The notes beneath the pieces are model-generated. The model saw only the letters and a list, made by a program, of their open reading frames with translations, was not told where the DNA came from and did no database searches. Made by a program: the position numbers and the translations under genes. DNA of 37,849 nucleotides, from the IMG/VR virus record IMGVR_UViG_3300050121_000055, positions 1 to 37,849 of that record; one strand, written 5' to 3'. The DNA is from a virus. Positions 1 to 37,849 of the stretch are shown here, in pieces; the stretch's first letter is position 1; each line of letters starts with the position of its first letter.

Positions 1-223
1 ATGGTTTAGGGTGACAGATGTAAAGGCGCAAAATATCAAGGACATGACCGAGCAGGACGCGGTTGAGGACGGGTTTCAAGATGAATATGTTGAAGAATTG
101 AAACGGCACCATTTTGCAGTTACAAAATTTAAAGATTTCTGGCTCAACCAATATGGCGCAGATCAATCGTGGATGTGGGTTTATTACCTACAGCCGATCA
201 CAAAAGAGGAAGCCGAGACATAA
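1..223 (+). repeat. Left copy of a diverged terminal duplication (copy A)
   Basis: Bases 1-223 match 37120-37342. The first 121 bases are identical; after that there are about half a dozen substitutions, several changing the protein (for example Thr to Ala and Tyr to Arg). Similarity continues more weakly past the stop codon through a hairpin and into the next gene. The identity begins at the very edge of the window, so an assembly explanation must be considered beside a real duplication. Confidence 0.9.
2..223 (+). CDS. ASCH-like phage protein, C-terminal part (5' end outside the window)
   Basis: This open frame enters from the window edge and encodes the last 73 residues of a protein whose full-length relative lies at 36764-37342. 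The frame is set by comparison with that copy, in which the same residues follow a motif reading RLWFRVTDVKAQ. The family is small phage proteins with an ASCH-like (PUA-related beta-barrel) fold, expected to bind RNA or nucleic acid; its role in phages is not settled. The ATG at 11 read by a simple ORF caller is not the true start. Compared with the other copy this one differs at five or so residues clustered near the end (Thr/Ala, Ser/Pro, Tyr-Tyr/Tyr-Arg), so both copies seem to be under selection as protein rather than decaying. Confidence 0.75.
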   Translation, partial: WFRVTDVKAQNIKDMTEQDAVEDGFQDEYVEELKRHHFAVTKFKDFWLNQYGADQSWMWVYYLQPITKEEAET

Positions 224-225
224 AA

Positions 226-249
226 GGGGCACTCATTCAAGAGCGCCCC
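226..249 (+). other. Intercistronic hairpin after the ASCH-like gene (copy A)
   Basis: A 9-bp stem (226-234 with 241-249, one A/C mismatch) closes a six-base loop directly after the stop codon. No run of T follows, so it is more likely a processing or stability element, or a weak terminator. The same element, perfectly paired, follows the other copy at 37346-37369. Confidence 0.6.
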
Positions 250-347
250 CACACAAGGAAAAAAGGGTGAAGTGTGAAAATCATCCATTACCTTGTGTCA
301 ATAGTATGAGGTTAAAATCTAAAAATATTCAAGGAGGCAAAAGGAGA

Positions 348-857
348 ATGATGGACAGATTAACTAAACGGGTAAAGGGCGTAGCATCCTTAGGATGGGA
401 AGGCGGAACATATTTTAAAATGGAAAAACTTACTCCAAATTGCAGTAAACATTATTGCCGGCGTAACGTTAAATGTCTGCATGTCACCGATCGTACATGC
501 CTATATCTCAGGTTGATTGATAGTCTTGCTGCCTATGAGGACACCAACCTAACCCCTGCTGAGATGACCGACCATGAGGAAATGTTCAAGGCTTATCGGC
601 ATATCTGTGGTGGAAAATCACCGGAAGAAATCTCTGAGACGATTAAAGCAAAAGAGGAAAGGCGGCCTTGCGAATTTTGCGAAGGGTACGGGAAAAGATA
701 CGGCCCTGCATTTCGTGTGGAATATTTTAAGCAGACGGCGGCAGATGATGGTATTGACATCGATATTGACGCGCTATTTTGCCCACATTGCGGGCGCAAA
801 CTCATATCTGAGGCCGCCGAGGCCGAGAAAGAGAGGTTAGAGCATGGAGAGATTTGA
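348..857 (+). CDS. Phage protein with C-terminal zinc ribbon, function unknown
   Basis: This encodes 169 residues. The start is ATG 348, ten bases after AAGGAGG (331-337); the second copy of this region keeps the same AGG-to-ATG distance. The middle carries a DTNLTPAE motif common in short Clostridia phage proteins. The C-terminal half has two CxxC knuckles (CEFC and CPHC followed by GRKL), a classic zinc-ribbon arrangement, and ends in a charged EAAEAEKER helix. The N-terminal third holds further cysteines. It overlaps the next gene by 14 bases, so translation is probably coupled. A shorter relative with the same DTNLTPAE and EAAEAEKER segments but without the zinc ribbon lies at 37476-37745, which suggests modular exchange. 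Function is unknown. Confidence 0.75.
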   Translation: MMDRLTKRVKGVASLGWEGGTYFKMEKLTPNCSKHYCRRNVKCLHVTDRTCLYLRLIDSLAAYEDTNLTPAEMTDHEEMFKAYRHICGGKSPEEISETIKAKEERRPCEFCEGYGKRYGPAFRVEYFKQTAADDGIDIDIDALFCPHCGRKLISEAAEAEKERLEHGEI

Positions 858-1548
858 AGAAATCCGCGAGAGGCTAAACAACGCAACATCAGGGCCGTGG
901 GAATATGCGGATTGTGCGTGTGAGATATGGAGCACAGCGCACAAAACCGTGACCGATGATGATGTGGTAATTGGTGGAGTAAACGGGGAAGGAATAGCGA
1001 TCAGCGAGGATAATTATAACTTCGTTTGCCATGCCCCCGACGATATCAAATACCTATTGGAGCAGATCACCGCCTTGCAGGAGGAAAATGAGAAATTCAG
1101 AAGAGGATGCGTGGGTTGCAGAGATCATCGTGAAGATTTATATCAAGAAGCGCACGAAGAATTGATAAAGGAGAACGCCGTCCTTAAATCCGATTTATTG
1201 GATGGCTCAAAAACAGGATATGAGGCTATGAGAAGAGAGATCACCACACTCAAAGATTACAATCACGCCCTTAAAGTTGCCAATGACACAACCTTCGAGA
1301 ATTACAAAAAGCTGGAGCAGGGCAGCGCCACCCTCAAAAAGGCGCTGGAGTTGGCCAAACAAGAACGGGATGCTGCGGTGATCGACTTACGTGATAATGC
1401 TAATAGACCGTGCTACATATGTAAAAGTTGGGAAAACGGACGTTGTACCAGAGAAATTAAAGATTGTGCCGGATTTAACTGGTGGAGCTGGCGCGGCATC
1501 CAGCAAACCCGCTCAGCCATCAACAGCAAGGAGGGGGAGGAAGAATGA
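844..1548 (+). CDS. Ead/Ea22-like phage protein with coiled coil
   Basis: The product is 234 residues. The N-terminus (ERFEEIRERLNNATSGPWE) matches the start of the Ead/Ea22-like family of phage early proteins, whose function is not established. Residues from about 75 to 175 are rich in Glu, Lys and Leu in heptad-like spacing and probably form a coiled coil (LLEQITALQEENEKF and following). The C-terminal 45 residues contain a CxxC plus further cysteines around a WENGRC segment, possibly a zinc site. The gene overlaps its neighbours on both sides (14 bases upstream, ATGA downstream), so it sits inside a tightly coupled early operon. The first codons are nearly the same as those of the NUMOD4 gene at 37732, which takes the equivalent place in the second copy. 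Confidence 0.7.
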   Translation: MERFEEIRERLNNATSGPWEYADCACEIWSTAHKTVTDDDVVIGGVNGEGIAISEDNYNFVCHAPDDIKYLLEQITALQEENEKFRRGCVGCRDHREDLYQEAHEELIKENAVLKSDLLDGSKTGYEAMRREITTLKDYNHALKVANDTTFENYKKLEQGSATLKKALELAKQERDAAVIDLRDNANRPCYICKSWENGRCTREIKDCAGFNWWSWRGIQQTRSAINSKEGEEE

Positions 1549-5389: not shown

Positions 5390-5797
5390 ATGGTTACCAA
5401 TAGAACAAAATTCCAATACGATGTTCTCAAAACCAAAATAGCGAAATACCTCGAGACTTCAACCGGTTTAAATACTCCCTCGCATGCAGCTGCTTATATT
5501 GGGGTAACACTCAAAACGCTCTATAACTACCGTACAGATGATAGCCATTACAACAACAACACATTCGGTTCAACAGAGGCTGACTTTAGTTATAAAACTC
5601 TCGTAGAAAACCTATACACTGTTCTTGAAAATAGGATACTTGACTGGATGGCGGCGGAGCCCACTAAAAGGACTGCCGCAGCGGCTTTAATACTTAACAA
5701 ACACTTCGGGTACAGGGTTGACACTAATAACAATGTTAATGTTTCAGGGACAATTAAGATCGAACTGCCGCCAGAACTGAAGAAGTTGGCGAGATGA
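5390..5797 (+). CDS. terS: Terminase small subunit
   Basis: The product is 135 residues from ATG 5390; AAAGGAG lies eight bases upstream. It would recognise the packaging site on phage DNA and recruit the large subunit. The N-terminal part (TGLNTPSHAAAYIGVTLKTL, YNYR) looks like a helix-turn-helix for DNA binding, the middle is helical (LVENLYTVLENRILDWMAA), and a short C-terminal tail (IKIELPPELKKLA) is the type that contacts the large subunit. The stop codon overlaps the terL start by four bases, the usual arrangement. Small subunits are divergent, so the call relies on position, size and the tail motif as much as on sequence. Confidence 0.75.
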   Translation: MVTNRTKFQYDVLKTKIAKYLETSTGLNTPSHAAAYIGVTLKTLYNYRTDDSHYNNNTFGSTEADFSYKTLVENLYTVLENRILDWMAAEPTKRTAAAALILNKHFGYRVDTNNNVNVSGTIKIELPPELKKLAR

Positions 5798-7200
5798 GAC
5801 AGAAAGTAACGAAGAATACGCTTTGGCTCAACTGCAAACCATCTGCGCGCCAAACACTGTTCTTTGAGGCAAGAAGTAGATACATAGCTTACGGTGGGGC
5901 CCGGGGCGGCGGGAAGTCATGGGCGTTGAGGATGAAAGTTATCCTCCTATCGGTAGAATATCCCGGGATAAGAATTTTACTGATACGCCGCACAATACAG
6001 GAGCTTAGAGAAAACCATATTATTCCGTTGCGGGGGATCCTCAACGGTGTCGCCACTTATAACGACGATGAAAAGGCTTTTCTCTTTCCAAATGGCAGCC
6101 GTTTGAAACTTGGATATTGCGACGCAGAGGCAGACGTTCTCCAATATCAGGGGCAGGAATACGACATCATATGTATGGACGAAGGAACACAGTTTACCGA
6201 GTTTCAATTTACATGTTTGAGAGCTTGCTTAAGGGGCGGAATGCCACTTCACCCCAAAAGATTTTATATAACCTGTAACCCCGGGGGGGTTGGGCATGCA
6301 TGGGTCAAGAGATTATTCATAGACCAACAGTACAGGGGCAAAGAAAAGAAAAGAGATTTCAGTTTTATCCCCGCAAAAGTATTCGATAATGACTGGCTGA
6401 TGAAGAATGATCCCGATTACTTAGAATCGCTTGAAACTATTCAGGATGAAAATTTGCGCAGGGCATGGCTTAACGGAGAATGGGACACGTTCTCAGGGCA
6501 ATACTTCACCGAATTTGACAAGAATATTCACGTATGCAAGCCTATTCCCATCCCGAGCGGATGGAACAAATATAACGTAATAGATTACGGCCTTGATGCT
6601 CTCGCCGGTCTTTGGATTGCTATATCCCCCGACAACGTGGCCTATGTCTATCGGGAAGTGTTCAGCGGGAAAGACGCAAGGGACAACAACGGCTTGATAG
6701 TGAGTGAGGCGGCTAATAAAATCAAGTCACTCGAAACCGATGAAATAACCATGAGGATAGCCCCACCCGATCTATGGTCGCGCAAATCAGACTCGGGGGT
6801 AAACTCCATAGAGATTTTTGCAAACCATGGCCTTTATTACATGAAAGCAAGCAATGACAGAGTGCCGGGATGGCTCGCCCTAAAAGAGTGGATGAAAGTG
6901 TTTGACAAAGACGGTAAGGCCACGGCGAGGTTACAGATATTTGAAAATTGTGTCAATCTCATTCGGTGTTTACCCTTGATGCAGTACAGTACAAAGGATG
7001 GCAACGACACGGCAGCAGAGCCGCATGATGTTACGCATTTACCGGATGCCCTTAGATACTGGGCAATTTCAAGGCCGTGCGCGACATACGTTGAGCCTCA
7101 GGAACAGCCGGACATCTATGCAGCATTCGGAGTTGAAGAAAAATCTGAGGGTCTATTCAGCGGTACAGTCACGGAAGAATATCTCACAGGAGGATGGTAA
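5794..7200 (+). CDS. terL: Terminase large subunit (packaging ATPase and nuclease)
   Basis: The product is 468 residues, normal for the family. It is the motor that pumps DNA into the prohead and cuts it. A Walker A motif lies at residues 34-42 (GGARGGGKS) and a Walker B at about 123-130 (YDIICMDE) with Asp129 and Glu130 as catalytic pair; CNPGG near residue 155-160 fits the coupling motif. The C-terminal RNase H-like nuclease contains Asp264 in NVIDYGLDAL and Asp418 in HLPDALRYW, both typical metal-binding acids. It begins inside the end of terS and is followed without a gap by a tiny cysteine-rich gene. Confidence in function is high. Confidence 0.95.
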   Translation: MRQKVTKNTLWLNCKPSARQTLFFEARSRYIAYGGARGGGKSWALRMKVILLSVEYPGIRILLIRRTIQELRENHIIPLRGILNGVATYNDDEKAFLFPNGSRLKLGYCDAEADVLQYQGQEYDIICMDEGTQFTEFQFTCLRACLRGGMPLHPKRFYITCNPGGVGHAWVKRLFIDQQYRGKEKKRDFSFIPAKVFDNDWLMKNDPDYLESLETIQDENLRRAWLNGEWDTFSGQYFTEFDKNIHVCKPIPIPSGWNKYNVIDYGLDALAGLWIAISPDNVAYVYREVFSGKDARDNNGLIVSEAANKIKSLETDEITMRIAPPDLWSRKSDSGVNSIEIFANHGLYYMKASNDRVPGWLALKEWMKVFDKDGKATARLQIFENCVNLIRCLPLMQYSTKDGNDTAAEPHDVTHLPDALRYWAISRPCATYVEPQEQPDIYAAFGVEEKSEGLFSGTVTEEYLTGGW

Positions 7201-7682: not shown

Positions 7683-7955
7683 ATGATTGAAATTCTATTA
7701 GGAATAGTCTGCGGAATGATAGTCTGCACCTTTGGCATGTGGTGCTTTATACACGGTCAGCACAACGCATATCAACTCTACCATAACGAACTGCCCCAAC
7801 AGTTAAGTAACCCCGTGAGGGCAGCCGTAGATGGTGTACAGGCCATGCGGGGGGACACAAAGAAAGACCAGGAAGACCCCAAAGATTTTGCTGAACAATT
7901 AAGTAATCTTATGAATTATAACCCCGAACTTGAAAAATCCGGAGAGGATGAATGA
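7683..7955 (+). CDS. Small membrane-anchored protein in the packaging module
   Basis: The product is 90 residues. The N-terminus is one transmembrane helix (IEILLGIVCGMIVCTFGMWC) followed by a polar cytoplasmic or external tail rich in Gln, Asp and Glu. The ATG at 7683 follows GAGGAGATTGT. It ends in an ATGA overlap with the portal gene, so it is translated together with it. A membrane protein next to the portal is known from several Firmicutes phages but its role is unclear. The 95 bases before it carry no gene. Confidence 0.65.
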   Translation: MIEILLGIVCGMIVCTFGMWCFIHGQHNAYQLYHNELPQQLSNPVRAAVDGVQAMRGDTKKDQEDPKDFAEQLSNLMNYNPELEKSGEDE

Positions 7956-9790
7956 GATTGAAAATAACTGCACCTGATTCAGAAACAATATGGGGACGTT
8001 ATCAAGCCGGTATGAATTATAAATTTGTACTCAATCTCTATTCCACTGTTACGAGGAATGAACGGATTTATGCCGGAGACCAGTGGAAAGGTTCGGATGC
8101 GCCCGATCTGCCTAAACCTGTTATTAATTTCATTAAACGTGCATGTCAGCAGAAAATTTCTGTCTTATTGCAAAATAAAGCTGCTGTTTTGTTCTCTGCC
8201 CCCAATTGGCCGAGCGATACCGTTACGGAAGATGCGGCACAGCAACAGAACGGCGTCAATACTCAATTGGCAGATGCTTTAAAGACCAAACAACCGTTGC
8301 CTGAAAGCATACTTATGTCTGAGGCCGAGGCTCAAAAATTATCGGGTATGTTTGAAGTAGACTGGGAACGTCTTAACATGGATTACGTAGGTCAATGCGG
8401 TCTTTTGGATGCCTGTATATCAGGAGATTTTATTCTGTTTAATTACTGGGATGATAAGGCAAAAACAGGCCAGACAGCAAAAGGGCATGTTGGTGTCGAA
8501 ACCATAGATAACGTGAACTACTATCCAGGTAATCCGAATTCAGCCGTTGTACAGAAACAGCCCTACATAATACTTGCCCGCCGTGAAATGGTGGATGATG
8601 TGAGGGCGGAAGCAAAGGAAAACGGCGCAAAACCCGAAGATTTAGAACAGATTTCACGCGATATGGATTACATGTTTCAGGCAGGGGACAAGGCACATTA
8701 CGAACTGATGGACAATGCGGATGGCAAAGTTATAACTTTGCTCTACCTTTGGAAAAATCGTGATACCGGTAAGGTGTGCGCTAAGAAATGCACAAAAAAT
8801 GTTACGATCCGTGATGCATGGGATACAAAGTTGAAACGTTATCCTGTAGCCATAATGAATTGGGAACTTAGAAAAAACTCATGTCACGGCAGGTCGGAAG
8901 TCGAGGGGCTTATACCTAATCAGGTGTCAATCAACAAAATTATGGCTATTATCATTCTTTATATGTTGTCAAATGGATCTCCGAAAGTCATTTACAGCCG
9001 TTCTGCGGGTATAAGTAAGTGGGATAACTCTATAACAAAACCTATGTCGGTATATGGAGATGTAAACGCGGCAGTCAAATACCTGCAACCTGCGTCGATG
9101 GCGGCGGATGCCTACAGTCTGCCCCAGACTTTAATGAATATGACCATGCAGATGATGGGCAGTAATGACGTGAACGTCGGGCAAGTATCATACAGGAACG
9201 CATACGCCCAACTGCTTGCTAAATTGCAGCAGGAAGCACCCGCGCGAACGGTCAGAAACCGTTACTACAATTTAATCAAGGATTTTGCTTTAAACTGGCT
9301 CGATATGACGCTTGCATACTTCCAGACTTCACGGTGGGTTGAGGTAGTCGACGATAAGGGCAACCGTTTTGTGACAGATTTTGACCCTGCAAAAATCAGG
9401 GACAAGGTATGGAGCGTAAAAATTGATGTCGGAGAGGGTCAGGACTGGACGCAAAATGTTCTTCTTGAACAGCTCGGAAACTCCCTGCAAAGTGGCGCTA
9501 TTGATTTCCTGACATACTTAGACCTAATGCCAAATGATTATTTCCCTAACAAAGATGAAATTATGGAAAAATTCACACAAAGGCAGCAACAGTCGGCACA
9601 AAATCAAGGTCAGAACAAAAAACCGCCCTCGGAGAGCATTAATATCAAAGATGTGCCGCCTACAGCACAAGCGCAGATGCTACAACAGGCAGGAATACAA
9701 GTTCAGCCGCAGGATTTGCAACAAATTCAGCAACCGACACAGCCACAACAGCCACAGCAACCACAAATTCCACAGATGGGAGGTAAATAA
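7952..9790 (+). CDS. Portal protein
   Basis: The product is 612 residues, a typical size for short-tailed phage portals. Twelve copies form the ring through which DNA enters and leaves the head. Supporting features are an N-terminal region with PDLPKPVINFIKRACQQK and an acidic, alternating helical core, the segment EGLIPNQVSINKIMAI that resembles the portal stem/wing, and the position directly after terminase and before the scaffold and capsid genes. The C-terminus (about residues 560-612) is a Gln/Pro-rich low-complexity tail with repeated QPQ units, perhaps flexible inside the head. It overlaps the preceding gene by four bases. Confidence 0.9.
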   Translation: MRLKITAPDSETIWGRYQAGMNYKFVLNLYSTVTRNERIYAGDQWKGSDAPDLPKPVINFIKRACQQKISVLLQNKAAVLFSAPNWPSDTVTEDAAQQQNGVNTQLADALKTKQPLPESILMSEAEAQKLSGMFEVDWERLNMDYVGQCGLLDACISGDFILFNYWDDKAKTGQTAKGHVGVETIDNVNYYPGNPNSAVVQKQPYIILARREMVDDVRAEAKENGAKPEDLEQISRDMDYMFQAGDKAHYELMDNADGKVITLLYLWKNRDTGKVCAKKCTKNVTIRDAWDTKLKRYPVAIMNWELRKNSCHGRSEVEGLIPNQVSINKIMAIIILYMLSNGSPKVIYSRSAGISKWDNSITKPMSVYGDVNAAVKYLQPASMAADAYSLPQTLMNMTMQMMGSNDVNVGQVSYRNAYAQLLAKLQQEAPARTVRNRYYNLIKDFALNWLDMTLAYFQTSRWVEVVDDKGNRFVTDFDPAKIRDKVWSVKIDVGEGQDWTQNVLLEQLGNSLQSGAIDFLTYLDLMPNDYFPNKDEIMEKFTQRQQQSAQNQGQNKKPPSESINIKDVPPTAQAQMLQQAGIQVQPQDLQQIQQPTQPQQPQQPQIPQMGGK

Positions 9791-11128: not shown

Positions 11129-12001
11129 ATGGCATTTGCAAATTTTAAACCCGAAATATGGTCTGAAAGCGTACTTATGGCACGTGACCGCAAGATTATT
11201 GCGGTTCAGAATTCATGGAGACAATTCGAAGGGGACATAAAAGCAAAAGGTGACCGTGTTCACATTGTAGGTCTGACCGGAGCGACCATCAAAGATGTGC
11301 CTGTCAGCGGTATCATCGACGACCCCGAAGTAATTACCGACGATGGGATGGAGCTTGTCATTGATCAGAGAAAGTATATCAACTTCAAGGTTGACGACAT
11401 CGACAAGTTGCAGTCCAATGTTCAGGTCCGCGGCTCAATAACATCCAAAACCGGAAACTTTTACGCAGTCAGGCAGGACTCGTTTGTTTACAATCTTGCC
11501 GTCGCTCTGGCCGGAGCAGGTGGTTTGTATGTTGATGGATATACTGTCACAACCGACAAGACTAACATTCTTGCGGTGCTGTCGAACGCTATCGCAATGG
11601 TGCAGAGCAACGACGGAGATGGCACATTCATGGAGGTGCATCCGTATGTATTCCAGCTTCTGCAGCAGGCGATTACTGCTATTCAGATGCCTAATGACAG
11701 CCTCATTCAGAACGGCCTCAAGGGCATGCTGTGGGACAACAAAGTATTCATGTCTGCCAACATTCCAGTGACTACCGATGCGGTCGGCTTAACTGCGGCT
11801 GTCCCGGGCGCAACTGGCGCAATCTATCACTGCCTTGTAAGAACTCAGGAGGCAATCGCATTCGCAGAGCAAAAAGCTATCGGGTTTGAATCCTATAGAA
11901 TGGAAAAAGGTTTCTCAGACGGCATCAAGGGGTTTGGCTTGTACGGTGCGAAAATCGTTCGCCCGTCTGAACTTGTTGATGTCAAAATAAAAATTAAGTA
12001 A
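11129..12001 (+). CDS. Major capsid protein
   Basis: The product is 290 residues, starting at ATG 11129 with AAAAAGGAGTG upstream. It should take the HK97 fold and form the icosahedral shell. Typical of the short, scaffold-assembled coat proteins are the opening segment (FANFKPEIWSESVLMARDR) and the C-terminal segment with AIAFAEQKAIGFESYRMEKG and GLYGAKIVRPSEL. No N-terminal delta domain is visible, which agrees with a separate scaffold gene just before it. It is followed at a 14-base distance by a second structural gene. Confidence 0.9.
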   Translation: MAFANFKPEIWSESVLMARDRKIIAVQNSWRQFEGDIKAKGDRVHIVGLTGATIKDVPVSGIIDDPEVITDDGMELVIDQRKYINFKVDDIDKLQSNVQVRGSITSKTGNFYAVRQDSFVYNLAVALAGAGGLYVDGYTVTTDKTNILAVLSNAIAMVQSNDGDGTFMEVHPYVFQLLQQAITAIQMPNDSLIQNGLKGMLWDNKVFMSANIPVTTDAVGLTAAVPGATGAIYHCLVRTQEAIAFAEQKAIGFESYRMEKGFSDGIKGFGLYGAKIVRPSELVDVKIKIK

Positions 12002-21668: not shown

Positions 21669-22679
21669 ATGCAAAGCAGAAACACAGCAAATCTGTCTGG
21701 CATAGACATATCGCATTATGATACGGGCATTGTCTATGGCGCAATTGCTGCCGCAGGAAAAAAGGTCGTGTACATGAAAGCGACTGAGGGCAGCACAGGT
21801 TCAACGGCAAAAGACCCAGCATTCGTAATTCATAACCAAAACTGCCGAACTCTTGGTCTTGCGACCGGGGCATACCATCTAATCCACGTTTATCCCACAT
21901 CCACCATAGACGCTCAGGTGGCGAACTTCCTCGAAACTATAAAAGGACAGGCTCTTAACTTGCCAATCATGCTTGACGCAGAGCCGGGAATAATCATAGG
22001 AGTAACACCCGAGATAGTGACCGCTCAATGCCTCGAGTTCGCCGATAAGGTCAAAGCCGCGACAGGCATCGAAATCGTTCTTTATACCAACACCGACACG
22101 ATCACGAATGCATTCACTGACGGCATCAAGCGCCTCCGGTTTGTTATCGCTGACACCCGGTACACGGCAGCCCCGGGCGAAAACGGCAGAGTTAATACAT
22201 GGGTAGGTTTTCAGTATTCATTTAGAGGGCAGATCGGCGGGCAGACTGTCGACCTTGACGAGTTTACTCCGGACATCATCGTCCCTGCATACACATACGG
22301 AGCACCGGCCCCCGTGCCCGCGCCTACGCCCACCCCAAAACCTGCACCGATACAGTTTGACGCCGACGTCTTGGCAGCGCAACGTGAACTCAACGCGGCG
22401 GGGGTGAGGGACGAGAATGGCAACAGGCTCGCCGAGGACGGCAAGGCGGGCGCCCACACGGTAGCAGCACTCGGTAAAAACTTACTTATTTATGATCCGA
22501 ACCACATCAAGGCGTGTGTAAAACTCCTACAAAAGCTGCTCGGGTTCACCAGCACAGACATTGACGGTAGGTTCGGGGACAAAACGCTCGCGGCTGTCAG
22601 AGCATACCAGACCGCGCACCACCTGCAGGTCGACGGCAAAGTCGGGCCGCAAACATGGAGGGCGTTAATTTTAATATAG
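21669..22679 (+). CDS. GH25 endolysin with peptidoglycan-binding domain
   Basis: The product is 336 residues from ATG 21669 behind an AAGGAGG site. The N-terminal domain (about 1-205) is a glycoside hydrolase family 25 muramidase, which cuts the glycan chain of the cell wall. The expected acids are present: Asp13 in SGIDISHYD, Glu40 in YMKATEG, and Asp103/Glu105 in MLDAEPG. A Pro/Ala/Thr linker (around 210-226) leads to a C-terminal PG_binding_1 domain with DGRFGDKTLAAVRAYQ and KVGPQTWRAL, which docks to the wall. There is no signal peptide, so release depends on the holin encoded nearby. Function is clear. Confidence 0.95.
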   Translation: MQSRNTANLSGIDISHYDTGIVYGAIAAAGKKVVYMKATEGSTGSTAKDPAFVIHNQNCRTLGLATGAYHLIHVYPTSTIDAQVANFLETIKGQALNLPIMLDAEPGIIIGVTPEIVTAQCLEFADKVKAATGIEIVLYTNTDTITNAFTDGIKRLRFVIADTRYTAAPGENGRVNTWVGFQYSFRGQIGGQTVDLDEFTPDIIVPAYTYGAPAPVPAPTPTPKPAPIQFDADVLAAQRELNAAGVRDENGNRLAEDGKAGAHTVAALGKNLLIYDPNHIKACVKLLQKLLGFTSTDIDGRFGDKTLAAVRAYQTAHHLQVDGKVGPQTWRALILI

Positions 22680-23818: not shown

Positions 23819-24835
23819 TTATGTCATTTTTAAGATTGCCGCCCTTAGAGTGTCAACGTTCTGATGAATATAGGTATTTGCAGTCATCCCGTAATCTTCG
23901 TGTCCGGCTATTGTCTGAATATCCTCCAGACGTGCACCTGCAGCAGCAAGTCTTGTTAAACAGGTGTGCCGTGTGGCATGTGGAGTTAATTTTCTCACTC
24001 CGATTAAGGCCAAAGCCGGATAATAACATTTCAGTCTAAAATGATTGGCAGACATTTCCTTGCCATTCTCATCGCATACTATTGTTTGTCCTCCACGTGC
24101 AAGCCAGCCCATTAGAATCCGTTCTATTTTGGGATGAACGGGAACGACCCTATTCTTTCCCGCCTCGGTCTTTTTGCCGCCCGTAAGGGCGTTATTCTCT
24201 CGGCTGTAACTGAACGGTGTGAGTTCCAAAAATTCACTTACCCTAAACCCAGTATAACACATCATTAATATGACATCCGCATACGGCACGACTGCCTTCT
24301 CGATTTTGGATAACTCCAATTCGGTAAAGCAGTCTTTTTTTATTTTTATGATTTTTGGCAGGACTAAAAAGGAAGCATAATTTTTATTAACAATATCATT
24401 TTCAGAAGCGTAGTCAAATAGTTGAGTCAACAAAGATTTTGTCTTTTGGAGCGTGCTGCTTGACATGTTCGAGTAAAAGTCGATAACCTTTTGCATCTGT
24501 CCGGTGCGAAGTTCCCGAAACTTTATATCATATAATGTCGTGAGTTTTTGCCAACACGCAGAATAATTGTCCTGCGTCTGCTTTGAGATATTTCTATAGG
24601 CTATTATTTTCCATTCTTCGTATAGTTTCTTTAAAGTGATGTTCAGTTTCGTTGTGGGATTGCGTCTATAATCTTCAAGCGCATCCTTGGCCTCTTGTGC
24701 GGTTGCATAGTGGCCGATAATTTGAGCCGGTACATTATCCTTTTCCGGCGTTACAGCACACCACGGGCGGTTATGCAGGTCAGAGCGCTTATATACAGAG
24801 CCTGTTCCATTCTCCCGCTTTATTTGTTTGCGCAT
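23819..24835 (-). CDS. int: Tyrosine integrase
   Basis: The product is 338 residues from the ATG complement of 24833-24835, with AAAGGA ten bases upstream; a GTG nine bases earlier is too close to that site. It recombines attP with the host attachment site. The N-terminal part (about 1-60) is a small arm-binding domain, then a SAM-like core-binding domain (60-160). The catalytic domain carries Arg198 in TGFRVSEF, a Lys in GGKKTEAGKNR, His286 and Arg289 in HATRH, His312 in AGHED and nucleophile Tyr322 in TYIHQ. All are present, so it should be active. Its end lies four bases after the last arm-type repeat, the normal Gram-positive phage order. Confidence 0.95.
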   Translation of the reverse strand: MRKQIKRENGTGSVYKRSDLHNRPWCAVTPEKDNVPAQIIGHYATAQEAKDALEDYRRNPTTKLNITLKKLYEEWKIIAYRNISKQTQDNYSACWQKLTTLYDIKFRELRTGQMQKVIDFYSNMSSSTLQKTKSLLTQLFDYASENDIVNKNYASFLVLPKIIKIKKDCFTELELSKIEKAVVPYADVILMMCYTGFRVSEFLELTPFSYSRENNALTGGKKTEAGKNRVVPVHPKIERILMGWLARGGQTIVCDENGKEMSANHFRLKCYYPALALIGVRKLTPHATRHTCLTRLAAAGARLEDIQTIAGHEDYGMTANTYIHQNVDTLRAAILKMT

Positions 24836-24850
24836 GGTCGTCACATCCTT

Positions 24851-32759: not shown

Positions 32760-33431
32760 ATGAACAAAACTAAAATAGACTGGTGCTCGGCCTCCTTAAA
32801 TCCGGTTGTAGGTTGCACTTTCAACTGCCCATTTTGTTACGCTCGAAAGCTCAATACTCGCTTCGGATGGATTGAGGATTTTTCAAAGCCGCAGTTTTTC
32901 CCTGACCGCTTGAAATCCCTTTACAGCAAAAAACCGCAGACTATTTTTATGGACAGTATGAGCGATATTGCGGATTGGAAGTCGGAGTGGATTGAGAAAA
33001 CATTTAGAGCGATGAAAGGCAATCCACAGCATACATATTTGTTTCTTACAAAGCGATATTTTCAGTTTATCTATAAAAATCGTGGGGTTGATTTTGAAAA
33101 AATGCTCAGAAATATTGAAAATTTAATGATTGGTGTTTCCACTACGACACAATCGGCAGTTAATAATTTGGGCGTAATGGTGCCAGACTTTCTATCTGTT
33201 GAGCCAATTCTTGAACCGATAGACTTATCCAAAATGTTTGAGCAAACTCTAAAACTGAAATGGCTGATTGTGGGAGCAGAGACTGGAAATCGTAAAGAAA
33301 AGATTATCCCGCAACGCGAATGGATAGAAAAAATAGTTGCAGATTGTGCATTTCGGAAAGTTCCTGTTTTTCTCAAAAGCAGTCTCGCGGATATCTGGGG
33401 CGAGCCACTTATTCAAGAATTTCCGTGGTGA
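32760..33431 (+). CDS. Gp37/Gp68-family (DUF5131) radical SAM-like protein
   Basis: The product is 223 residues from ATG 32760 behind GGAAGGAG. Cys19, Cys23 and Cys26 (GCTFNCPFCYA) form the CX3CX2C cluster of radical SAM enzymes, which use an iron-sulphur centre to cleave SAM. Later motifs, IFMDSMSDIADW, YLFLTKR, GVSTTTQ, LSVEPILEPID and IVGAETG, follow the phage Gp37/Gp68 pattern. Members are frequent in phages; the substrate is unknown. It is a bit shorter than typical relatives. Another radical SAM gene follows 57 bases downstream. Confidence 0.85.
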   Translation: MNKTKIDWCSASLNPVVGCTFNCPFCYARKLNTRFGWIEDFSKPQFFPDRLKSLYSKKPQTIFMDSMSDIADWKSEWIEKTFRAMKGNPQHTYLFLTKRYFQFIYKNRGVDFEKMLRNIENLMIGVSTTTQSAVNNLGVMVPDFLSVEPILEPIDLSKMFEQTLKLKWLIVGAETGNRKEKIIPQREWIEKIVADCAFRKVPVFLKSSLADIWGEPLIQEFPW

Positions 33432-33488
33432 GCGCTACAAACATAAATAATACAATACGTATAAATAGTGGAGGAATGGGGGGATAAA

Positions 33489-34376
33489 TTGAAAGTCGGT
33501 TTATGGAATGACGATCATAATTTTCCAAATCTTGCAACCATGAAATTGTCCGCTTATCACAAGGCAAAAGGAGACAAGGTTGAATTTTTAGACCACCTAA
33601 ATACATACGACCTTGTCTATTGCTCAAAGGTATTTGATTTTACAGCGGATGCCGAAGATGCGGCGCTCATACAAACCAACAAAATCATTCGGGCCGGAAC
33701 AGGATATCACGATTATAAAACCATTCTGCCCCCTGAGATTGAGCACCTTTATCCCGACTATGGATTGTACCCGCAATATCAGCAGGCCTATGGCTATTTA
33801 ACACGGGGATGCCCCCGAAACTGTACGTTCTGTATCGTGAGCCAAAAAGAGGGGCAGGAAAGCATACACGTTGCCGATCTGCATGAGTTTTGGAGAGGCC
33901 AAAAGGAAATTAAGTTACTTGACCCGAATTTATTGGCCTGTAAAGACCACGAGCGGATTTTAAAGCAGTTGGCTGATTGTGGAGCATGGATAGACATTAC
34001 GCAAGGTTTTGACATCCGATTTGTGACGCCTGAAAATATGCCGCTGATCAACGCCCTGAAAATCAGATCAATTCATTTTGCATGGGATAACCCTAATGAC
34101 GATCTGACTGATAAATTCAAATACTTTTCAGAGCACACTATAATGTCAAAGCACCGAAAGCCGAGTGTTTACGTCTTGACCAATTTCGGCAGCACCCATG
34201 AGCAGGATTTGTATAGGATTTATCGGCTGCGTGATTTAGGGTATGACCCCTATGTGATGATATTTAATAAAGCGGATGCACCGCGTCAGACAAGGTTATT
34301 ACAAAGATGGGCAAATAATAAGATCATTTTTAATAGCGCAGAAAAATTTCAAAATTATGACCCGAAAAAGGGGTAA
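33489..34376 (+). CDS. Radical SAM protein, second of the pair
   Basis: The product is 295 residues with a TTG start at 33489, six bases after GGGGGGAT; the first residues (KVGLWNDDHNFPNLATMKLS) match where family members normally begin, better than the GTG at 33468. The iron-sulphur site is Cys108, Cys112 and Cys115 (RGCPRNCTFC). The region before it (HKAKGDKVEFL, DLVYCSKVF) looks like a B12-binding-type Rossmann fold, and after it come EIKLLDPNLLAC and WIDITQGFDIRF. Phage homologues exist, function unknown. A shared pathway with the preceding gene is likely but not shown. Confidence 0.85.
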   Translation: MKVGLWNDDHNFPNLATMKLSAYHKAKGDKVEFLDHLNTYDLVYCSKVFDFTADAEDAALIQTNKIIRAGTGYHDYKTILPPEIEHLYPDYGLYPQYQQAYGYLTRGCPRNCTFCIVSQKEGQESIHVADLHEFWRGQKEIKLLDPNLLACKDHERILKQLADCGAWIDITQGFDIRFVTPENMPLINALKIRSIHFAWDNPNDDLTDKFKYFSEHTIMSKHRKPSVYVLTNFGSTHEQDLYRIYRLRDLGYDPYVMIFNKADAPRQTRLLQRWANNKIIFNSAEKFQNYDPKKG

Positions 34377-35875: not shown

Positions 35876-36049
35876 ATGATATTACCTTGCACGACATGTA
35901 AAAGTAAAAAAGTAGATAAACAAGGGCCCAGGGAATTTGTCGGCTGCAACGACAAAGCAAAACACGATAAGAATTTCCACTACGACGATTTTTTTTATCA
36001 TCATTCGTGTGATGCATACGAAAAGGAGGCTTCACACGATGCCGAATGA
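35876..36049 (+). CDS. Small cysteine-rich phage protein
   Basis: The product is 57 residues from ATG 35876, just after GGGAAGAG. It has cysteines in PCTTCKSKK, at GCNDK and in HHSCDAYEK, enough for one zinc site with the His residues. No family is recognised. It overlaps the Lar-like gene by 11 bases, and holds that gene's AAGGAGG site near its end. Confidence 0.55.
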   Translation: MILPCTTCKSKKVDKQGPREFVGCNDKAKHDKNFHYDDFFYHHSCDAYEKEASHDAE

Positions 36050-36332
36050 ATTAAAACCGTGTCCCTTTTGCGGAGGGGAAGCAAAATTGAGCGCAAAAGA
36101 TCACCTATTCGGAGGTTATAACGGAGTTGGGCAGTCACGCAGAGAATATTTGATTAAGGCGATTTGTAATAAATGCAAAGCTCGCGGCCCTGTATTTGCT
36201 ACAGGATGGGTGAACACGACTTATGATTGCTACAAGCAAAAAGAAAGCTCTGTGTCAGAACAGGATAAAGCATTACTTTCTGCGGCAGAGGCCAAAGCAA
36301 TCTCCACATGGAACCGCAGAACGAAGGAGTGA
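36039..36332 (+). CDS. Lar-family restriction alleviation protein
   Basis: The product is 97 residues. The start, ATG 36039, follows AAGGAGG nine to ten bases upstream. Cys8/Cys11 (LKPCPFCGGEA) and Cys43/Cys46 (ICNKCKARGP) form the zinc ribbon, and the closing AEAKAISTWNRRTKE matches the typical Lar ending. Lar proteins from Rac and phages reduce restriction by modulating type I enzymes; many relatives in Firmicutes phages are only known by sequence. The stop lies six bases before the CTG at which the RusA gene seems to begin. Confidence 0.8.
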   Translation: MPNELKPCPFCGGEAKLSAKDHLFGGYNGVGQSRREYLIKAICNKCKARGPVFATGWVNTTYDCYKQKESSVSEQDKALLSAAEAKAISTWNRRTKE

Positions 36333-36338
36333 CGAAAT

Positions 36339-36767
36339 CTGAAAATTAAATTTACAATACCAGGCCCTCCGATGGGAAAGGGCAGGCCGAAGTTTGCAAG
36401 GCGCGGGAATTTTGTAAGTACATATACGCCGGAAAAAACCGCCAACTATGAAACGCTTGTCAAATGGTATTTCCAGCAGGAGGCACAAGGGCAAAAACTT
36501 GACGGAATGCTAAAAGTTGGAATCGACGCTTTTTACCCGATTCCGAAGTCGACATCTAAAAAGCAAGCCGAAAATATGAGGAATGGAATTATACGCCCTG
36601 TAAAGAAACCTGACTTTGATAACGTTGGAAAAATCATATGCGATTCGCTCAATGAGATAGCCTTTAAAGATGATTCGCAGATTGTAGATGGGCGTGTGCA
36701 GAAGTTTTATAGCGATACACCAAGAGTAGAAATTCAGATTGAAGAAATGGAGGATAAGGCGAAATGA
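36339..36767 (+). CDS. rusA: RusA-family Holliday junction resolvase, apparent CTG start
   Basis: The product is 142 residues if it begins at CTG 36339. This codon lies nine bases after AAGGAG and restores the normal N-terminal strand and motif (KIKFTIPGPPMGKGRPKF); the first ATG, at 36372, would remove that strand. Only CGA, AAT, CTG, AAA and ATT lie between the upstream in-frame stop and that strand. The catalytic acids are in RPVKKPDFDNVGKIICDSLN and FKDDSQIVDG. RusA dimers cut four-way junctions in replication and recombination. The next gene overlaps by four bases. Confidence 0.85.
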   Translation: MKIKFTIPGPPMGKGRPKFARRGNFVSTYTPEKTANYETLVKWYFQQEAQGQKLDGMLKVGIDAFYPIPKSTSKKQAENMRNGIIRPVKKPDFDNVGKIICDSLNEIAFKDDSQIVDGRVQKFYSDTPRVEIQIEEMEDKAK

Positions 36768-37342
36768 TTAGAGGCGAATTATTCAGCCAGGACATGGTCA
36801 AGGCGTTTTTAGAAAATCGCAAATTCCGCACAAGCAGACCAATTAAGCATGGTTTCGACGCTGTATATAAGGCAACTTGCGCTCGCGGAAAGTGGAGCGA
36901 GACATACGGAAATCACATCCCAGACAGTGTCATAGAGTGGTATGTAAAAAACATAGCCAAGCCCAAACACCACATCGGAGATGCCATTTACGTGAGGGAA
37001 ACGTGGTCTTTCGAAAACGTTAACTGCAAAGACCAATACGTTTTTAAAGCTGATAAATGGGATAGAAGTGGGCTGAAATGGCACCCCTCCATCCACATGC
37101 CCCGTGAAGCAGCCCGTCTATGGTTTAGGGTGACAGATGTAAAGGCGCAAAATATCAAGGACATGACCGAGCAGGACGCGGTTGAGGACGGGTTTCAAGA
37201 TGAATATGTTGAAGAATTGAAACGGCACCATTTTGCAGTTGCAAAATTTAAAGATTTCTGGCTCAACCAATATGGCGCAGATCAACCGTGGATGTGGGTT
37301 TACCGCCTGCAACCGATCACAAAAGAGGAAGCCGAGACATAA
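36764..37342 (+). CDS. ASCH-like phage protein, full length
   Basis: The product is 192 residues from ATG 36764 in an ATGA overlap. The order MIRGELFSQDMVKAFLENRK, GDAIYVRETWSF, YVFKADKW, LKWHPSIHMPREAARLWFRV and VTDVKAQNIKDMTEQDAVED is the phage ASCH-like pattern, a PUA-related barrel thought to bind RNA or modified nucleic acid. Its last 223 bases recur, slightly changed, at the start of the window. It ends the early operon here and is followed by a conserved hairpin. Function in the phage is unknown. Confidence 0.8.
   Translation: MIRGELFSQDMVKAFLENRKFRTSRPIKHGFDAVYKATCARGKWSETYGNHIPDSVIEWYVKNIAKPKHHIGDAIYVRETWSFENVNCKDQYVFKADKWDRSGLKWHPSIHMPREAARLWFRVTDVKAQNIKDMTEQDAVEDGFQDEYVEELKRHHFAVAKFKDFWLNQYGADQPWMWVYRLQPITKEEAET
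37120..37342 (+). repeat. Right copy of the diverged terminal duplication (copy B)
   Basis: Pairs with bases 1-223. Identical for 121 bases from 37120, then about six substitutions. After the stop both copies have a GGGGCACTC-type hairpin, a GTGTGAAA piece and CATTACCTTGT. Copy B has an extra short CATTC duplication near 37400-37413. Confidence 0.9.
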
Positions 37343-37345
37343 AAA

Positions 37346-37369
37346 GGGGCACTCGATGGTGAGTGCCCC
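37346..37369 (+). other. Intercistronic hairpin after the ASCH-like gene (copy B)
   Basis: A perfect 9-bp stem (37346-37354 with 37361-37369) with a six-base loop directly after the stop. No T run follows. The same hairpin with one mismatch follows copy A. Confidence 0.65.
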
Positions 37370-37475
37370 ACACAAGGGAAAGAGTGAAAGTGTGAAAGTC
37401 ATTCAGTCATTCATTACCTTGTATCAATAGTATAGGGAAAATTTTTAAAAATATGCGTTTGGAGGCAAAGTGAGA

Positions 37476-37745
37476 ATGCTGGAACAGTTAAGTAAAATTG
37501 GATTTTTAGCAGCACATCAAAAATATGAAGATATTGAAATGTATCGGGAGCTTTGCGATTATCAAGACACCAACCTAACCCCTGCCGAAATTGTCGACCT
37601 CGCCCTGGCGAAAGAGGAAGGGCGAATTATCCCAAAGAAGATCATGGACGGAATTAAAGAAAACGAACGTCAAATGATCGAGGCGTTTAAAAAGTGTGAG
37701 GCCGCCGAGGCCGAGAAAGAGAGGGTAGAGAATGGAAAGAATTGA
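37476..37745 (+). CDS. Short phage protein related to the gene at 348-857
   Basis: The product is 89 residues from ATG 37476, ten bases after GGAGG, the same spacing as in the first copy. It shares the DTNLTPAE motif (20 identical bases) and the EAAEAEKER ending with the 169-residue protein at 348, but the N-terminus differs and the zinc-ribbon part is replaced by a plain helix (EEGRIIPKKIMDGIKENERQ). This is a mosaic pair built by recombination in shared blocks. It overlaps the next gene by 14 bases, just like its relative. Function unknown. Confidence 0.65.
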   Translation: MLEQLSKIGFLAAHQKYEDIEMYRELCDYQDTNLTPAEIVDLALAKEEGRIIPKKIMDGIKENERQMIEAFKKCEAAEAEKERVENGKN

Positions 37746-37849
37746 AGAGTGGAGAGACATTAAAGGATTTGAATGGCATTACAAAATAAGTGACATGGGA
37801 CGAGTTTACAGTTGCACCCGCAATCTTATTATCAAGACGCAGAAAAATA
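37732..37849 (+). CDS. NUMOD4-HNH homing endonuclease, N-terminus only (cut by the window end)
   Basis: The frame runs from ATG 37732 to the edge. The 39 visible residues (IEEWRDIKGFEWHYKISDMG then RVYSCTRNLI) match the NUMOD4 module that opens many phage HNH homing endonucleases; the catalytic HNH part lies outside. The first five codons resemble the start of the Ead-like gene at 844, which occupies this spot in copy A, so the two may have exchanged at that point. Confidence 0.7.
   Translation, partial: MERIEEWRDIKGFEWHYKISDMGRVYSCTRNLIIKTQKN

Follow-up and report, generated by a model that had tools for sequence, protein, structure and literature searches.

Diverged ends of a viral contig are most likely one accessory locus of a circular temperate phage, seen twice

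Results

The IMG/VR virus record IMGVR_UViG_3300050121_000055, analysed here over its entire 37,849 bases ("the window"), very probably represents a circular phage of ~37.1 kb, in which the last ~600 bases are a strain-variant second version of the site where the circle was cut. Because the window is the whole record, the imperfect repeat that joins its two extremities lies at true contig ends. Three properties of a closed, circularly permuted phage genome are found together: an identical overlap between the ends, a gene that is restored when the ends are joined, and relatives that run continuously through the junction. A preliminary description of this sequence spoke of a diverged duplication, a term that is apt for the letters themselves; in biological terms, we most likely see one locus twice. 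The features discussed below are collected in Table 1.

Table 1. Features of the window and their coordinates
Feature	Position	Strand	Remarks
Copy 1 of exact terminal overlap (probable branch k-mer in assembly graph)	1..121	+	3' part of phrog_874 gene, whose 5' part is at 36764-37119
Allele A	122..857	+	End of phrog_874 gene, two-hairpin element, 169-aa gene (348-857) with DTNLTPAE and EAAEAEKER
Two-hairpin element, allele A	218..301	-	Second hairpin terminator-like on minus strand
Gene after slot in allele A, 234 aa, phrog_37865	844..1548	+	Homologues at same place in G007 and G003
Terminase large subunit	5794..7200	+	Relatives 94-95% identical
P22-like portal protein	7952..9790	+	~29% identical to portals of Bacillus phages Page and Pony
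Major head protein, phrog_267	11129-12001		
GH25 endolysin	21669-22679		
Tyrosine integrase	23819..24844	-	Between lysis genes and repressor
RusA-type endonuclease gene	36372..36767	+	Just upstream of slot; 95% identical in G003
phrog_874 gene, 192 aa, no assigned function	36764..37342	+	Intact with allele B; equally intact 192-aa allele A via join to 1-223
Exact terminal overlap, copy 2	37120..37240	+	Identical to 1..121
Allele B	37241..37849	+	End of phrog_874 gene, two-hairpin element, 89-aa gene (37476-37745), start of NUMOD4/HNH endonuclease gene
Two-hairpin element, allele B	37337..37427	-	Same element, between phrog_874 gene and small gene

The repeat and the gene it interrupts

When the ends of the window are compared with each other, the first 121 bases recur without a change and the first mismatch falls at 122, an exact repeat that is far beyond chance. 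Over the longer stretch 1-223 against 37120-37342, the preliminary description correctly gave the first 121 bases as identical but counted about six differences after them; there are seven, at 122, 167, 184, 185, 186, 190 and 193. Further exact blocks follow (in copy 1 numbering, 123-166, 194-225, 540-559 with the DTNLTPAE motif and 809-836 with EAAEAEKER), and identity, 87% over 1-368, persists beyond the exact part into the start of the next small gene. Past 223/37342 the copies are mosaic, with an intergenic element, a start region and the two motif blocks common to both, just as had been described earlier for the hairpin, the motifs and the start spacing. Two features had been missed: copy 1 begins inside a gene truncated at base 1 (open frame 2..223), and copy 2 supplies the 3' end of a gene that is complete (36764-37342). 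No second record with the exact 121-base core was found in an exact search of the viral contig collection.

Joining 36764-37119 to 1-223, as a circle of 37,119 bases would do, yields an open gene of 192 aa (allele A). Its product differs from that of allele B at 3 residues, and the remaining changes are synonymous; both look like real coding alleles, so the differences between them are probably not read errors.

Relatives place the two ends side by side

Related contigs show what lies across the junction. G007 (3300050123_000055; 20.2 kb), whose terminase is 94% identical to the window's, carries in uninterrupted order the counterparts of window positions 32.7, 33.4 and 35.8 kb, then 0.2, 0.8, 1.0, 1.5, 1.9, 3.0, 3.2, 3.9 and 4.8-9.4 kb. 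Likewise, G003 (3300050014_000169; 43.3 kb) matches the window at 33.0-36.8 kb and then at 0.8-3.6 kb. Each has a single copy of the accessory slot that follows the phrog_874 gene in the window, located between homologues of the right-end and left-end genes, so the window's ends adjoin and the apparent two copies are most likely one locus. The integrase gene lies mid-contig, which indicates that the contig was opened at an arbitrary place and not at an attachment site. Within the record, the phage genes are bordered by nothing recognisable as a host gene.

In addition to the genes in Table 1, the genome encodes a Cro/C1-type regulator on each strand and Rad52-like and SSB proteins. We also note two neighbouring radical SAM-like genes in the phage recombination module, at 32760-33431 and 33468-34376 (a DUF5131 protein; weak Radical_SAM match), the latter 78% identical in the related contig G002, and a small gene at 36024-36332, upstream of the RusA-type gene, with an above-cut-off match to the restriction-alleviation protein Lar family of Pfam (PF14354).

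Two alleles of an accessory slot

The slot itself shows the kind of mosaic exchange that is usual for accessory loci of phages. The small gene of allele B is shorter than that of allele A, with the same start spacing and tail, and is followed by a NUMOD4/HNH endonuclease gene that starts at 37732 and of which the contig includes the first 39 codons. Yet another small gene occupies the slot of G007; in G003 it holds a fourth version that comes directly after the RusA-type endonuclease gene and lacks the intergenic element. G003 provides the only relative found for the allele-A small gene, and searches for relatives of the allele-B small gene returned none. The allele-B NUMOD4/HNH gene (37732-37849) and the unrelated allele-A gene both begin with MERxEE, which may point to exchange through a short stretch of homology around the start codon.

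A conserved two-hairpin element in the slot

In both alleles, an element of 84-91 nt lies between the phrog_874 gene and the small gene, and a third copy is found in G007 (locus L039, 5559-5641, plus strand). The G007 copy is 92% identical to that of allele A, even though the preceding gene and the following small gene differ. On the minus strand, each of the three sequences folds into a pair of neighbouring stem-loops (z-scores -5.9, -5.4 and -4.0), the second of them a GC-rich hairpin with a U run after it. Terminator-like hits are expected by chance at 0.7-1.0 per 900 bases, about as often as observed, so the weight rests on conservation. Over the three sequences, 51 of 51 paired cells are standard on the minus strand against 48 of 51 on the plus strand; the three plus-strand breaks arise because each substitution gives G-U one way and an A.C mismatch the other. 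In the inner stem, as read by eye and with no tool, a G-C pair in allele A becomes A-U in allele B. We rejected a plus-strand structure, in which the three variable pairs break, and also a plus-strand terminator, as that strand has no U run and terminator hits fall on the minus strand only. The element has no match in Rfam, covariance searches over the fetched loci gave no further convincing copies, and none was found in the genome contig collection.

On the strength of these three sequences, the element is a fair candidate for a putative minus-strand small RNA with an intrinsic terminator. A bolder and rather doubtful suggestion is that the exchanged slot unit carries its own putative small RNA gene, an 84-91 nt minus-strand transcript of two stem-loops, the second an intrinsic terminator, lying antisense to the leader of the next accessory gene. 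If so, it would represent an undescribed family of phage antisense or regulatory RNAs, kept while the flanking genes are replaced.

Discussion

We propose that the diverged ends of the window arise from a branch in an assembly graph. De Bruijn assemblers break contigs where paths multiply, leaving an end overlap of maxK, or of maxK-1 for IDBA_UD (PMC10914622). The phage would be temperate and podovirus-like, with circularly permuted or concatemeric DNA that makes its 37,119-base unit circular in the graph, and its population would hold at least two alleles of the accessory slot after the phrog_874 gene. Where these alleles part, at window position 121/122, the graph would branch. The assembler would leave the branch k-mer along allele A (window base 1 onward), travel round the circle, meet the same k-mer again at 37120-37240, and exit this time along allele B, on a path that ends at 37849. 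The exact 121 bases would then be the graph overlap, and the diverged tail the other strain's allele. Underneath this explanation lie the observed sequence identity, the restored gene, relatives that stay collinear across the join, and sister contigs whose ends bear a similar signature; we infer coexisting strains as the source of the two alleles and a k of 121 in the window's assembly. A toy graph that combines the circle of 37,119 bases with the tail of allele B has one branch node and no join node, and its main unitig starts at window base 1 only at k=121 among the values tried. The exercise is partly circular, since the window itself supplied the circle; its contribution is a predicted k of 121, or of 122 for an overlap of k-1.

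The sister contigs bear the same signature. As in the window, the overlaps in G002, G003 and G004 begin at the terminal base of the contig and stop at the first difference. G002 (39,828 bases) has ends of 222 bases (1-222 and 39607-39828; loci L058 and L059) with a single mismatch at base 127 and hence an exact run of 126. The ~1 kb ends of G003 (1-1025 and 42267-43291; loci L060 and L062) share ~90% identity, and 127 bases at the terminus match without a change. The starts of G004 and G001 show exact runs of 127 and 126 that are common to other contigs; a run of 107 at the start of G006 fits no k. Runs of 126 and 127 are the lengths expected from an assembly at k=127, around which they group. 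The window's overlap of 121 bases departs from the 126 or 127 of the sister contigs, which counts against the proposal; it probably reflects a k other than 127, or trimming. G002 and G003, both classed as linear, are thus probably circles as well (39,606 and 42,266 bases) that were cut open at variant sites.

Other readings of the repeat account for less of this evidence. If two related prophages lay in tandem, with the window reaching from the slot of the first to that of the second, the same gene order would be expected, and sequence alone does not discriminate an attP from a site between tandem prophages. This reading nevertheless requires two prophages with identical slot-proximal 121 bases and no host flank. 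The record shows no host flank, its outer neighbours lying beyond the contig ends. The tandem reading leaves unexplained why exactness starts at contig base 1 and why two other phages of the group share the end signature, and we consider it very unlikely. Slightly less credible still is that the accessory cassette was truly duplicated within a genome larger than 37.8 kb. Phage accessory regions do duplicate, and the hairpin element and related small genes occur in both copies; against this, copy 1 is cut off inside a gene by the contig end, the unit already has packaging, head, lysis, integrase, repressor and recombination genes, and in G007 and G003 the right-end genes lead directly into the left-end genes with one copy of the slot.

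The contig could also be a chimera, with allele B drawn from an unrelated phage that shares 121 bases by chance, a reading that gains from the NUMOD4/HNH gene at the end of allele B, which has no counterpart directly after allele A. The identity between alleles past the exact part and into the small gene makes the donor a close relative instead, at which point a chimera differs only in degree from the best explanation; in its original form, we regard it as the least probable reading of all. Terminal redundancy of the packaged molecule as such can be set aside, since it would be exact and the observed repeat is diverged. Among the possibilities raised in the preliminary description, the best supported is thus a circular phage (about 37.1 kb) whose end is a strain variant, given the gene restored by the join and the collinear relatives. 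The suggestion of an assembler overlap was also right and amounts to the same thing, the exact part being the overlap at a graph branch, whereas an internal cassette duplication does not agree with relatives that have one copy.

The finding is real; its best interpretation is that natural strain variation in an ordinary temperate phage was rendered in this form by the assembly. Because the ends repeat imperfectly, the circularity of what is most likely a complete phage genome would go unrecognised, and circularity tests that demand exact end repeats miss such genomes, as the linear classification of G002 and G003 also illustrates. At the same time, the two alleles offer a momentary view of how cassettes are exchanged at a single locus of a phage.

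Judged by the portal protein, Page and other podophages that infect Bacillus megaterium come nearest among named phages. The portals of Page, Pony and Pascal are ~29% identical to the window's over 88-93% of the protein, and their genomes are of similar size (~40 kb), that of Page being reported as circularly permuted (PMC3990757). These phages differ from the window in having no DNA similarity to its 7.9-21.7 kb region by megablast, a region for which deposited phages in general gave no DNA match; moreover, the window encodes an integrase and repressor-like HTH proteins. The word "integrase" is absent from the Page genome announcement (PMC3990757), so that this gene may or may not be a point of difference. 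Far closer are three IMG/VR records (3300050123_000055, 3300050124_000034 and 3300050190_000092) with terminases 94-95% and portals ~60-63% identical to the window's, the first of which shares the two-hairpin element; they differ in being fragments of 11.7-28.3 kb with other genes in their accessory slots. A portal profile search of genome contigs detected no prophage relative, and hence we name no host.

As for the ends themselves, a literature search on imperfect terminal repeats arising from strain variation gave no closely matching paper; the nearest parallel is with the contig ends described for COBRA (PMC10914622). There the overlap is defined as exactly maxK or maxK-1; the window's, at 121 bases, would fit that definition if its assembly had a matching maxK. 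In both cases a contig end overlaps exactly with a second place in the assembly, matching stops at a branch, and an appended variant path keeps a circular genome from being recognised. The end pattern of the window is best read as an ordinary product of assembling mixed virus populations.
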